Assembly: GCF_002211445.1 (NCBI RefSeq)
Contig: NZ_LSTO01000002.1
Span: forward strand, 219,210 to 251,254
DNA: 32,045 nucleotides
Source: Noviherbaspirillum denitrificans
GTDB lineage: Bacteria; Pseudomonadota; Gammaproteobacteria; Burkholderiales; Burkholderiaceae_D
Reading direction: 5' to 3'
Position 1 is the stretch's first letter; each line of letters begins with the position of its first letter. Of the stretch, positions 15,338 through 18,613 are shown one piece after another. The position numbers were made by a program, and so were the translations under genes. The notes below the pieces were generated by a model. The model saw nothing but the letters and a program-made list of their open reading frames with translations, was not told where the DNA came from and made no database searches.

Positions 15338-15919
15338 ATGACGTATATCGATTCCGAATTCCACCGCACGAAGGCTCGCGAGCTCATGAAGGATGCCGAA
15401 CTGGTGTTCGACGCCGACGCCGTGCAGAAAGCCGTGGACAAGGTGGCACAAGAGCTCAACCAGCGCTTCGATGCCGACGACAGCGAAGCCTTCCCGCTGG
15501 TGCTGGGTGTGATGGGCGGCGCGGTCGTATTCTGCGGCCAACTGCTGACCCGCCTCACCTTTGCGCTCGAGTTCGATTACATGCATGTGACGCGCTACGG
15601 CAGCAAGGACCAGGGCGGCACCATCGAATGGAAGGTGATTCCCCGTTCCAACGTCGAAGGCCGCACGGTGATCGTGCTGGACGATATCCTCGATGAAGGC
15701 GAGACGCTCGCGCATGTGAAGGAGCGGTTGCTGCAGATGGGGGCGAAGGAAGTGGTGATTGCGGTGTTTGCGGATAAGGATATTGGCAAGGCCAAACCCT
15801 GCTGTGCTGATTACATCGGGCTGACCCTGCCTAACAAGTTTGTTGTGGGGTATGGGATGGATGCTTATGGGTATTGGAGGAATTTGCCGGCGATTTGGGC
15901 GGTGAAGACGGGGGGCTGA
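15338..15919 (+). CDS. hpt: Hypoxanthine(-guanine) phosphoribosyltransferase
   Basis: A 193-residue type I phosphoribosyltransferase of purine salvage, converting hypoxanthine or guanine plus PRPP to IMP or GMP in the cytoplasm. The PRPP-binding motif is VIVLDDILDEGETL (111-124). VLGVMGGAVVFCGQL (55-69) is the pyrophosphate-binding loop region, and the C-terminal NKFVVGYGMDAYGYWRNLP contains the base-binding loop. GAGGT lies 8 nt upstream of the start. The last 60 or so codons switch from C-ending to G- and T-ending codons (GGG, TTT, TAT, AGG), unlike the first two thirds of the gene. The switch ends at the large inverted repeat that begins 7 bases after the stop. Confidence 0.94.
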   Translation: MTYIDSEFHRTKARELMKDAELVFDADAVQKAVDKVAQELNQRFDADDSEAFPLVLGVMGGAVVFCGQLLTRLTFALEFDYMHVTRYGSKDQGGTIEWKVIPRSNVEGRTVIVLDDILDEGETLAHVKERLLQMGAKEVVIAVFADKDIGKAKPCCADYIGLTLPNKFVVGYGMDAYGYWRNLPAIWAVKTGG

Positions 15920-15992
15920 TTTGGTTTTTCTTCGGTGACCCAATGCGTTGGGTTCTCCGTGGATGCTGGCCGGGACTGGCCCCGGCGGGCCA

Positions 15993-16024
15993 CTTACTTT
16001 CTTTGCTTCGCCAAAGAAAGTAAG
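15993..16024. repeat. 13-bp perfect hairpin, left arm
   Basis: CTTACTTTCTTTG pairs with CAAAGAAAGTAAG around the 6-nt loop CTTCGC. It is one of two equivalent hairpins in the composite repeat; the partner is at 16461-16492. Confidence 0.85.
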
Positions 16025-16067
16025 CAAAGAAAGGCGACCCCGGCGCGCAGCCCCTTCGGGGTACCCG

Positions 16068-16156
16068 AAAAACTGCATCGGAAAGCGGGAAGCGCGGAAA
16101 CTCGCCTTCGGCTCAGACAGTCCGCGCTTCTTTATCCGCTTTCCGCTGCAGTTTTT
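16068..16156. repeat. Long hairpin with conserved loop, left arm
   Basis: Outer stem: 16068-16077 with 16147-16156 (10 bp). Then one T/C mismatch, a middle stem of 16079-16088 with 16136-16145 (10 bp), a 5-nt bulge TTTAT (16131-16135), and an apical stem GAAGCGCGG (16089-16097) with CCGCGCTTC (16122-16130). The loop is 24 nt (16098-16121). The architecture equals that of the hairpin at 16325-16419 read on the minus strand, though the stem sequences differ. Confidence 0.85.
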
Positions 16157-16180
16157 CGGCTGCGCACAGGGGAAAGTGCA

Positions 16181-16220
16181 AAACCCATCCCCACCCTGGC
16201 CCTCCCCTTGAAGGGGAGGG
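16181..16220. repeat. REP-like unit, left inner copy
   Basis: The unit begins AAACCCATCCCCACCC and ends in the palindromic core CCCTCCCCTTGAAGGGGAGG. It matches the right half of the doublet at 8171-8273 and is inverted relative to 16261-16301. Confidence 0.85.
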
Positions 16221-16260
16221 AATCACAGCTGCCTTGGCATAGTCCGGAGAAGCGCTTTGC

Positions 16261-16301
16261 TCCCTCCCCTTCAAGGGGAGGGTTGGGGTGGGGATGGGGT
16301 T
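16261..16301. repeat. REP-like unit, right inner copy
   Basis: The palindromic core CCCTCCCCTTCAAGGGGAGG is followed by a G-rich tail ending GGGGATGGGGTT. In this pair the cores face inward and the tails outward, the reverse of the doublet at 8171-8273. Confidence 0.85.
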
Positions 16302-16324
16302 AAAGAAGTTCCCCTGTGCCGACG

Positions 16325-16419
16325 CCAAAAGAGCGGGCGGAAAATCGGAAAAAGAAGGGCAGACTGTCTGAGCCGAAGGCGAGTTTCTGCCCTTCCCGAT
16401 TTTGCGCCCGCTCTTTTGG
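16325..16419. repeat. Long hairpin with conserved loop, right arm
   Basis: The outer stem of 15 bp pairs 16325-16339 with 16405-16419. After a G/G mismatch come a middle stem of 8 bp (16341-16348 with 16396-16403), a 5-nt bulge AAAAA (16349-16353), and an apical stem GAAGGGCAG (16354-16362) with CTGCCCTTC (16387-16395). The loop is 24 nt (16363-16386), and 23 of these bases are the exact reverse complement of the left-arm loop. Confidence 0.85.
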
Positions 16420-16460
16420 GAACCCCGAAGGGGCGGCGGAACCGGGGTCGCTTTCTTTTG

Positions 16461-16492
16461 ATTACTTTTCTTGGCGAGACAAGAAAAGTGAT
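16461..16492. repeat. 13-bp hairpin, right arm
   Basis: ATTACTTTTCTTG pairs with CAAGAAAAGTGAT around the loop GCGAGA, with one wobble pair. Position and size match the left-arm hairpin at 15993-16024 while several stem bases differ. Confidence 0.8.
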
Positions 16493-16564
16493 TGGCCCGC
16501 CGGGGCCAGTCCCGGCTAGTCTCCACGGAGACCCAACCGAATCGGGTCACCGAAGAAAACCCGC

Positions 16565-18613
16565 TTACTCCTCCACCTCCACCTTATGCTCACTCACCAT
16601 CCTCTGCTGAGTAGCCGGCGGCACAATATCGTAATGACTGAACTCCACGGTATAACTCCCCCGACCCGCCGTAGTCGAGTTAAGCCGTGACTGATAGCTG
16701 TTCAGCTCCGACAGCGGCACCTGCCCCGACACCACCACCACCGAAGCCTGCACCGTCTGCATCCCGTTGATCTGCCCGCGCCGCGAAGAGAGGTCTCCGG
16801 TGATGTCGCCCATGCATTCCTCGGGTGTGACAATCTCGATGTTGACGATCGGCTCCAGCACCATCGGCCGCGCCTTCATCACCGCGTCGATGAAGGCCTT
16901 CCGTCCGGCCGTGGCAAACGCGACTTCCTTCGAGTCGACGGGATGGCTCTTGCCGTCGTACACGATCACCTTCACGTCCTGCATCGGGAAGCCCGCCAGC
17001 GGCCCGGCGTCGAGCACCTGGCGGATGCCTTTTTCCACCGCCGGAATGAACTGCCCGGGAATCGTGCCGCCCTTGACCTCATCGACGAATTCGAACCCAG
17101 AACCGCGCGGCAGCGTCTCGACGCGGAGGAATACTTCGCCGAACTGGCCGGCGCCGCCGGTCTGCTTCTTGTGCCGGTGATGGCCCTCGGCGCGGCCGGC
17201 GACCGTCTCGCGATAGGCGATCTTCGGCGGATGCGTCGCGACGTCGATCTTGTACACCTCCATCATGCGTTCCAGAGCGGAACGCAGGTGCAGTTCACCC
17301 AGGCCGAGCAGCACGGTTTCATTGGTGCTCGCATTGTGTTCGACCTTCAGGCAGGGATCTTCCGCCGTCAGCTTCTGCAGGATTTCCCACATGCGCTGCT
17401 CATCGCCGCGCTTCTTGGGCTCGATGGCAAGGCCGAAGATTGGCGTCGGGAAGACGGAGGGGCGCAAGTGGATGTGGTCGTCTTCGGCCGCATCATGCAG
17501 CACGGCGTCGTACACCATGTCCTCGATCTTCGCGACCGCGCAGATATCACCCGGGACTGCCTGCTGCACTTCCACCTGCTCCTTCCCCTGCAGCATGTAC
17601 AGGTGCGTCACCTTGAACGGCTTCCGGCCGTCACCGATGTAGAGCAAGCCGTCGCGCTTCACCGTTCCCTGGTGGATGCGGAAGACGGCGATCTTGCCGA
17701 TGAAGGGATCGACCGCGATCTTGAACACATGCGCCAGCACATGCTGCGACGGATCGGGCACGGAACGGATTTCCTTCTTCCTGTCGGGCGCGCTGTCGTC
17801 GTCGCGGTAGAACAGCGGCGGATTGCCTTCCGTGGGATTCGGCATCAGCTTGACGAAGACGTCGAGCAATTCCTTGATGCCGGCGCCGTTCTTGGCCGAG
17901 ACGAAACAGATGGGCACGAGATGGCCTTCGCGCAAGGCCTGCTCGAAGGGCGCATGCAATTGCTCCGGTTCGATTTCGCCCTGTTCGAGGTAAAGCGACA
18001 TCAGGTCGGCATCCACTTCGACCACCTGGTCGACCAGCGCGCGGTGCGCGGCCTCTATAGATGAAAAATCCGACTCGCCGGCCGGATTGAAGAAGCAATC
18101 GACGACTTGCGTGCCGCCTGCCGCAGGCAGGTTGATGGGGAGGCACTCCTTGCCGAAGGTCTCCTGGATGCGCGTGACCAGCGCCGGCAGGTCGGTATGC
18201 TCGGCATCGATCTTGTTGACGACGATCATGCGGCACATGTTGCGCTGCTTCGCCCAATCCATCATGCGGCTGGTAATCATCTCGATGCCGTTCTGCGCAT
18301 TGATGACGACCGCCGCCGTTTCCACCGCGGAGAGGGCGCTGATCGCCTGGCCGATGAAGTCCGGATAGCCGGGCGTGTCGAGCAGGTGGACGCAGGTGTC
18401 GCGATGGTCGATGTGGATGACTGCGGAGTTGAGCGAGTGCTGGTACTTGCGTTCCAGCGGGTCATAGTCGCAGGTGGTGGTGCCGCGTTCGAGGCTGCCA
18501 GGCGTGCCGATCATGCCCGCCCCGTGCAGGAGCGCTTCGGCCAGGCTGGTCTTGCCGCTGGAGGTGTGCCCGACGAGGGCAATGGTACGGATGGCTTCGG
18601 TACTGTATGGCAT
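16565..18613 (-). CDS. Elongation factor G-like translational GTPase (EF-G2 type)
   Basis: A 682-residue five-domain GTPase of the EF-G family. G1 is GHTSSGKT (15-22), G3 is DTPGYPDF (79-86), G4 is NKID (133-136) and G5 is SAKNG. Domain IV and V segments such as GGAGQFGEVFLRVE and GQINGMQTV are present. The switch II histidine of canonical EF-G (DTPGHVDF) is Tyr83 here, and the protein is shorter than typical EF-G, as in the EF-G2 group of Thermus and mycobacterial FusA2. It is thus a paralog of unclear role and not the housekeeping fusA. The ribosome binding site is AAAGGA. The last 50 or so codons shift to G- and T-ending codons next to the large inverted repeat. Confidence 0.92.
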   Translation of the reverse strand: MPYSTEAIRTIALVGHTSSGKTSLAEALLHGAGMIGTPGSLERGTTTCDYDPLERKYQHSLNSAVIHIDHRDTCVHLLDTPGYPDFIGQAISALSAVETAAVVINAQNGIEMITSRMMDWAKQRNMCRMIVVNKIDAEHTDLPALVTRIQETFGKECLPINLPAAGGTQVVDCFFNPAGESDFSSIEAAHRALVDQVVEVDADLMSLYLEQGEIEPEQLHAPFEQALREGHLVPICFVSAKNGAGIKELLDVFVKLMPNPTEGNPPLFYRDDDSAPDRKKEIRSVPDPSQHVLAHVFKIAVDPFIGKIAVFRIHQGTVKRDGLLYIGDGRKPFKVTHLYMLQGKEQVEVQQAVPGDICAVAKIEDMVYDAVLHDAAEDDHIHLRPSVFPTPIFGLAIEPKKRGDEQRMWEILQKLTAEDPCLKVEHNASTNETVLLGLGELHLRSALERMMEVYKIDVATHPPKIAYRETVAGRAEGHHRHKKQTGGAGQFGEVFLRVETLPRGSGFEFVDEVKGGTIPGQFIPAVEKGIRQVLDAGPLAGFPMQDVKVIVYDGKSHPVDSKEVAFATAGRKAFIDAVMKARPMVLEPIVNIEIVTPEECMGDITGDLSSRRGQINGMQTVQASVVVVSGQVPLSELNSYQSRLNSTTAGRGSYTVEFSHYDIVPPATQQRMVSEHKVEVEE

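Follow-up and report, generated by a model that had tools for sequence, protein, structure and literature searches.

A dispersed two-armed palindrome of Noviherbaspirillum denitrificans with a predicted triplex layout in its arm cores

The palindrome and its relatives

What is the large palindrome that lies between two convergent genes of Noviherbaspirillum denitrificans? The window, by which we mean the whole stretch of 32,045 nucleotides that was analysed, holds 634 bases of imperfect palindrome between an hpt-like gene and a gene for an EF-G-like GTPase, and this palindrome is one copy of a dispersed, non-coding, usually two-armed repeat that is present in many bacteria. The earlier note, made from the letters of the window alone, had described nested inverted repeats at 15926-16559 with paired short and long local hairpins, and these are real. 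Three pairs of inverted arms are nested in one another, at 15923-16043/16442-16562 (121 nt, 83% complementary), 16082-16142/16342-16402 (61 nt, 89% complementary) and 16181-16221/16261-16301 (41 nt, 90% complementary). The 16-bp ends are perfect and G/C-rich REP-like units occupy the middle, both as described; a perfect inner pair is also present, but its length is 25 bp (16098-16122/16362-16386) and not 23. The element does fill the intergenic gap, at six bases from the hpt stop codon and five from the EF-G-like stop codon. Its parts and neighbours are as follows.

15338-15919, + strand: flanking gene, phosphoribosyltransferase (hpt-like; PF00156)
15926-16559, no strand: whole composite palindromic element (sequence and inverted-arm comparison)
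15926-15941, + strand: outer end repeat, left, perfect over 16 bp with 16544-16559
15977-15992, + strand: G/C hairpin then T-rich tract, terminator-like, left arm (consensus match only)
15996-16005, + strand: left arm core, pyrimidine stem strand ACTTTCTTTG
16008-16011, + strand: left arm core, loop bases able to pair with 16034-16037 (pseudoknot)
16012-16021, + strand: left arm core, purine stem strand CAAAGAAAGT
16025-16033, + strand: left arm core, third strand CAAAGAAAG (family evidence and window letters)
16034-16037, + strand: left arm core, tail able to pair with the loop
16052-16172, + strand: left long hairpin, apex conserved, self-complementary stem variable
16189-16220, - strand: inner G/C-rich unit, class II triplex layout, Y-R-R (layout compared with the available part of PMC4666352)
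16222-16260, no strand: central spacer
16262-16293, + strand: inner G/C-rich unit, class II triplex layout, Y-R-R
16325-16419, - strand: right long hairpin, same apex, stem sequence partly different
16452-16460, - strand: right arm core, third strand CAAAAGAA, mirror pattern and not direct repeat (G000:C2:235662-235698)
16464-16473, - strand: right arm core, purine stem strand CAAGAAAAGT
16480-16489, - strand: right arm core, pyrimidine stem strand ACTTTTCTTG, type B
16493-16508, - strand: G/C hairpin then T-rich tract, terminator-like, right arm (consensus match only)
16544-16559, - strand: outer end repeat, right
16565-18613, - strand: flanking gene, EF-G-like GTPase

Matched in inverted orientation, the two halves scored 293, whereas none of 94 other 634-bp segments of the sequence exceeded 30; 254 of 303 aligned positions (84%) agree between the halves. 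The predicted RNA fold of the + strand reached -481.6 kcal/mol, compared with -265.9 (sd 7.95) in 20 shuffles (z -27). The left arm is of type A and the right arm of type B, and each therefore keeps a core hairpin of its own where the two arms no longer match. Protein coding inside the element was rejected, as its four overlapping ORFs (122, 145, 391 and 117 aa) matched no Pfam family.

The earlier suggestion of a dispersed element was borne out, as arms occur elsewhere in the same genome and in relatives, some of them alone and often at the 3' ends of genes. The genome of N. denitrificans itself contains three full copies, one reduced copy and short pieces; the other two full copies are 92% and 90% identical to that of the window, all three lie between convergent genes, and the distance from core to stop codon is 74-76 bases on five of their six sides. 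A 255-base arm matched 23 of 60 relatives and 11 of 14 congeners, and two arms that face each other are again found in Noviherbaspirillum, Caballeronia, Paraburkholderia and Herbaspirillum. Exact cores number 55, 86 and 53 in the Caballeronia genomes G060, G061 and G062, respectively. The exact core pattern was found in at least 120 stretches of named genomes; among the matches listed these were mostly from Caballeronia, Paraburkholderia/Burkholderia and other Burkholderiales, together with Lysobacter, Xanthomonas, Neisseria, Eikenella, Selenomonadaceae bins and one Chitinophaga. For the arm cores seen outside Proteobacteria, in Chitinophaga skermanii (L100) and a Selenomonadales bin (L134), transfer and contamination are both possible. 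Seven plasmid records of 0.67-1.9 Mb matched, six from Caballeronia and one from Paraburkholderia. A phage origin was rejected, with no match to a 181-base Caballeronia arm in the phage collection and only two stretches of viral contigs holding the exact core.

That the palindrome might be an artefact of assembly, an outcome for which the earlier note had allowed, was likewise rejected, because facing pairs recur across many independent genomes, four of them on a single contig of more than 4.8 Mb (G251). Some contigs seem to end in or beside an arm (L083, L099, L131, L135; G001:C83, G007:C8, G007:C10), and since assemblies are broken there the copies of the repeat are probably undercounted. 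Runs of N lie at the arms of L002 and L316, and the doubled arm of L316 around its N run is probably an assembly artefact.

Mirror third strand and loop-tail pairing in the arm core

In the arm core, a loop of about six bases separates ACTTTCTTTG from CAAAGAAAGT, and a linker of three bases joins CAAAGAAAGT to CAAAGAAAG. Because the common stem is mirror-symmetric, the third stretch of the common core can be read as a direct or as a mirror copy. Among 303 distinct contexts, 241 were uninformative in this respect, 60 were mirror and 2 were nearer direct; the mirror order is therefore found in 60 of the 62 asymmetric stems, and five stem types agree, core copies within one genome not being independent of each other. 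One of the two stems that are nearer direct looks like a register effect with an extra purine. The type B stem is accompanied by a mirror third strand in 34 of 399 Burkholderiales genomes, spread over 20 of 159 genera, and by a direct third strand in none of the 399. The reading as a direct repeat was rejected on both counts (60 against 2 asymmetric stems, 34 against 0 genomes). The mirror order is not Watson-Crick in origin; it is the rule that an antiparallel purine third strand follows. Class II intrastrand triplexes have this Y-R-R order, in which the third strand runs antiparallel to the purine strand and matches it, and the arm core is, judged by its sequence, a predicted class II intrastrand DNA triplex layout with an added pseudoknot. 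The earlier note, whose interpretation is partly supported overall, had missed both the mirror third strand and the loop-tail pseudoknot, and the arm core with these two features is the new point. At L159:281-326 and L027:2954-2999, the third strand has C in place of G opposite a purine-strand G at the base of the stem; the triple rule may change there, near the linker.

The tail that follows the third strand is complementary to the loop. The longest loop-tail helix averaged 4.44 over 41 distinct loop/tail combinations (181 arms), against 2.99 (sd 0.15) when loops and tails were permuted and a maximum of 3.49 in 1000 permutations. Covariation was scored on 23 cores (22 distinct), made up of 15 of 36 diverse cores and eight picked by hand, all of one stem and loop length, with the structure named after the loop/tail helix result had been seen; in this sample the pairs of the structure are formed in 94.2% of cells, both sides vary in 9 of its 14 pairs, and the covariation score was 0.337, against 0.131 in shuffled alignments (0 of 500 as high) and 0.052-0.108 in controls with a slid structure. 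In the same 23 cores, pair types were no more numerous than in the shuffles (122 of 500). The loop-tail helix itself pairs in 83% of cells, so that some cores lack it. The geometry agrees with a pseudoknot, as the third strand runs from the stem base to a point next to the loop. The covariation, which involves both stem and loop-tail pairs, shows that the arms keep a predicted ability to fold as a single strand (hairpin, third strand and pseudoknot) while their sequence changes.

The long hairpins, at 16052-16172 and 16325-16419 in the window and as 36 hairpins in the loci, combine a conserved tip and a one-sided T-rich bulge with a stem sequence that changes fast. The 36 distinct long hairpins contain 32 distinct stem stretches of 18 bases, yet the stems fold back on themselves. 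Between the two long hairpins of the window, 34 of the 51 pairs of the left one are unchanged, 3 are changed on both sides, 8 are broken and the rest are unaligned.

Facing pairs, half elements and orthologous sites

The facing pair is the common form of the element, and the arms also occur as modules. Opposed arms within 700 bases of each other formed 41 pairs in 120 loci (among the matches listed) and the window. In G060, 46 of the 55 exact cores form 23 facing exact pairs, and most of the others are half elements. A facing pair with 338-520 bases between the cores was present at 49 of the 52 first-fetched loci of G060, G061 and G062 (all but L242, L244 and L249), a sample that is biased for G060, where the loci had been chosen with a query that held an interior. 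Twelve further G060 loci, which came from listing all 55 exact cores, added four pairs and eight single arms, and 8 of the 32 G060 loci are without a facing partner and are apparent half elements (L361, L363-L367, L369, L370). At 21 loci of the general pattern, mainly outside Caballeronia and Paraburkholderia, most show one arm, in a count that a diverged partner would escape. Two Noviherbaspirillum loci carry outward-facing arms between convergent genes, the reverse of the order in the window (L302:2650-3200, L303:2600-3150). Single half elements and outward-facing pairs indicate that the arms are modules, which the earlier note had supposed when it proposed that two copies were inserted head to head. 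As a chance event at one place such an insertion is less likely, because a facing pair of similar spacing recurs and its arms are present or absent together at an orthologous site.

This site is one Caballeronia gene pair, for which 30 loci were read out of 41 genomes with a match, both genes being adjacent in 27. Nine of the 27 loci hold an arm pair, one holds a single arm and 17 hold none. At this site some species carry the unit and others lack it, as is also seen with MITEs and foldback elements. The gap is 21-207 bp at 16 of the 17 armless sites; at L273 the same gene pair is separated by an armless gap of 1365 bases. By eye, the short gaps of L252, L253, L262 and L265 retain only the outermost inverted stem, and from this sequence they look like copies that have collapsed to a short hairpin, whilst L267 and L275 have clean short gaps with no remnant. 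No target-site duplication was noticed by eye at this gene pair, the flanks of which have diverged. In a search for an empty allele of the window's own site, up to 1.5 kb of sequence on either side of EF-G was fetched from 13 congeners and contained neither hpt nor an arm; the 14th congener (G011) has no close EF-G orthologue.

The interiors enclosed by the arms are mostly alike within a genome and can differ between species. At the Caballeronia site, the nine pairs have interiors of three unrelated kinds, one at L251, one at L277 and one shared by seven loci. Compared two by two, interiors share a blastn hit in 253 of 276 comparisons within G060 (159 of them with hits of at least 150 bases), in 153 of 153 within G061, in 55 of 55 within G062 and in 198 of 198 between G061 and G062. 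Between G060 and the other two genomes a hit is shared in 25 of 696 comparisons, all through L360, a figure that supersedes the 0 of 580 obtained before the twelve loci were added, with the query-picked and biased G060 subset (itself 190 of 190, 74 of these covering more than 40% of the interior). One interior family therefore dominates G060, and another, common to G061 and G062, has one shortish G060 relative, L360, which indicates that interior families can coexist in one genome. For the orthologous site, the simplest reading of the sequences would be replacement of the interior with the arms kept; independent insertions are a possible alternative.

Explanations and related systems

We propose, tentatively and with a confidence that falls just short of an even chance, that the arms fold as single-stranded DNA and that the dispersed palindrome is spread by copying or conversion. 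A single strand of the arm would fold into a pyrimidine/purine hairpin, along whose purine stem the purine third strand would lie antiparallel whilst the tail pairs with the loop; in Noviherbaspirillum this arm core would be followed by the long hairpin with its conserved tip. We infer that the fold forms in single-stranded DNA at replication forks, or in repair or transfer, where it would stall synthesis or be recognised, and that units would thereby be copied or converted from site to site. Interiors that are mostly alike in one genome yet differ between species would follow from such copying or conversion. The element sits in intergenic gaps, with a preference for convergent gene pairs; it would be least harmful there, and it may double as a two-way terminator.

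A terminator role is also the main rival of the folded-DNA reading, with which it could coexist, and we regard it as an unlikely explanation by itself, if one to be taken seriously. As a two-way terminator or 3'-end element, each arm, transcribed from the gene next to it, would provide a G/C hairpin and then a T-rich tract, together with large stems, so as to halt RNA polymerase and shield the 3' end. Gene context, read with a home-made gene caller in 105 loci of at least 2 kb and more than 57% GC, the window among them, favours this role. Of the arm pairs with genes on both sides, 34 in number, 12 lie between convergent, 20 between co-directional and 2 between divergent genes; with eight Noviherbaspirillum pairs added (L301 dropped as a repeat of L098) these counts become 17, 23 and 2. 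The 481 arm-free neighbouring gene pairs of the same loci comprise 70 convergent, 328 co-directional and 83 divergent pairs, and thus arm pairs are enriched between convergent genes (17 of 42 against 70 of 481, p 1e-4) and depleted between divergent ones (2 of 42 against 83 of 481, p 0.046), the sites not being fully independent. A baseline restricted to gaps of at least 60 bp (21 convergent, 163 co-directional and 76 divergent of 260) gives p values of 4e-7 and 4e-4, respectively, but omits short convergent gaps; the bias persists, in weaker form, when all neighbours are counted. The placing of the three full copies in N. denitrificans and their regular distance to the stop codon also favour the terminator, as do the terminator-like hairpins matched by consensus in both arms and the outer hairpin that is retained at some collapsed Caballeronia sites. 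However, 23 of the 42 arm pairs have co-directional neighbours, the consensus match on which the terminator scan relies hardly exceeds shuffles (3 against 1.5, sd 1.3), and the mirror third strand is left unexplained. The genes also do without the element, as is seen at the 16 element-free sites of the Caballeronia gene pair with both genes in place and short gaps. The gene-side bias fits a terminator and fits neutral insertion too.

A structured RNA gene, or a pseudoknot of the 3' UTR, appears quite improbable. The arm core would then be an H-type RNA pseudoknot with an A-rich third loop, a topology that fits, and the strong predicted RNA folds agree with it. On the other hand, Rfam gave no match at gathering in the window, and the 23 matches up to E 1 in the element are all below gathering. 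RNA under selection is expected to favour G-U pairs. In 144 distinct cores, the departures from stem pairing are 19 G-T, 25 A-C and 40 other, so that G-T is not in excess over A-C, and in the long hairpins G-T makes up 69 of 1604 predicted pairs; this scarcity of G-T pairs is a weak and indirect pointer to DNA over RNA. The third strand, moreover, matches purine for purine in mirror order, which is the purine motif of DNA, and according to the available part of PMC4666352 purine-motif triplexes cannot form in RNA. Against the folded-DNA reading, the same part of that paper reports no stable triplex in cells for the nearest studied motif.

Least probable, and in our opinion very improbable, is that the element is an ordinary REP/BIME family moved by a RAYT transposase and fitted with extra parts. 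The resemblance to REP, BIME and REPIN sequences with RAYT is that of intergenic palindromes in inverted pairs and many copies, with G/C-rich REP-like units inside, and the genome of N. denitrificans encodes a strong RAYT (202.8 bits, G000:C1:153060-153494), which is not tied to the element. Yet in seven arm-carrying congeners (G003, G007-G010, G012, G013) the best RAYT reaches no more than 47-81 bits, with two congeners slightly above the cut-off of 80 bits, and on these scores the link to RAYT was rejected. The unit is also far larger than a REP, and the 23 aligned cores have neither GTAG nor CGTC at the 5' foot of the hairpin; GTAG occurs at the 3' foot in some core variants. No transposase or other enzyme was tied to the element, and the REP-associated transposases compared across congeners do not track it.

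Taken further, the folded-DNA reading would make the element a new kind of mobile palindrome, whose arms would be read as a folded single-stranded DNA triplex with pseudoknot and whose spread and interior replacement, over dozens of sites in one genome, would proceed by template switching or gene conversion and not by a classical transposase; this stronger claim we think on the whole unlikely, though a little less so than the terminator. MITEs and foldback elements share with the present element their non-coding nature, inverted ends, presence or absence at an orthologous site and many copies, whereas here the arms are defined by their fold and the interior differs between species. No autonomous partner came to light, and inspection of the diverged flanks by eye showed no target duplication. 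Recombination sites that act as folded single-stranded DNA, such as integron attC sites and the ends of IS200/IS605, keep the fold of one strand over its sequence and have a long hairpin with a one-sided bulge, and the same is true here; unlike them, the element has, to our knowledge, no known recombinase.

Mirror change between stem and third strand, together with loop-tail change, over many genera amounts to evolutionary evidence on intrastrand DNA triplexes in living cells, and the arm cores constitute a natural series of compensated mutants with which triplex formation can be tested. The element to which they belong is widespread, and its copies are gained, lost or collapsed and vary in their interiors. 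Our literature search found no earlier description of the repeat, and searching by sequence strings returned, among the matches listed, no title on bacterial repeats; an earlier description is possible, as subscription journals lay outside the scope.

The closest known system is BoxC/PIT/TM_ECO (Holder et al. 2015, PMC4666352). In the available part of that paper, it has a pyrimidine, a purine and a third purine stretch in that order on one strand (class II), as does the arm core. The core described here differs in being A/T-rich and in having a loop-tail pseudoknot of 4-5 bp; third-strand covariation across genomes and a facing two-arm unit with an exchangeable interior are further points that set the present element apart from BoxC/PIT/TM_ECO as presented in that part. 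The TM_ECO consensus given there does not fit the A/T-rich arm core, and the inner G/C-rich units resemble it without an exact match. These inner units (CCCTCCCC, a loop, GGGGAGGG and a G-rich stretch) do have a class II layout like that of BoxC/PIT/TM_ECO (PMC4666352, same part). BoxC/PIT/TM_ECO sequences are, in the same source, also dispersed, intergenic and arranged in inverted pairs, and its authors associate them with instability and with the loss of palindromic sequence down to a shorter hairpin.
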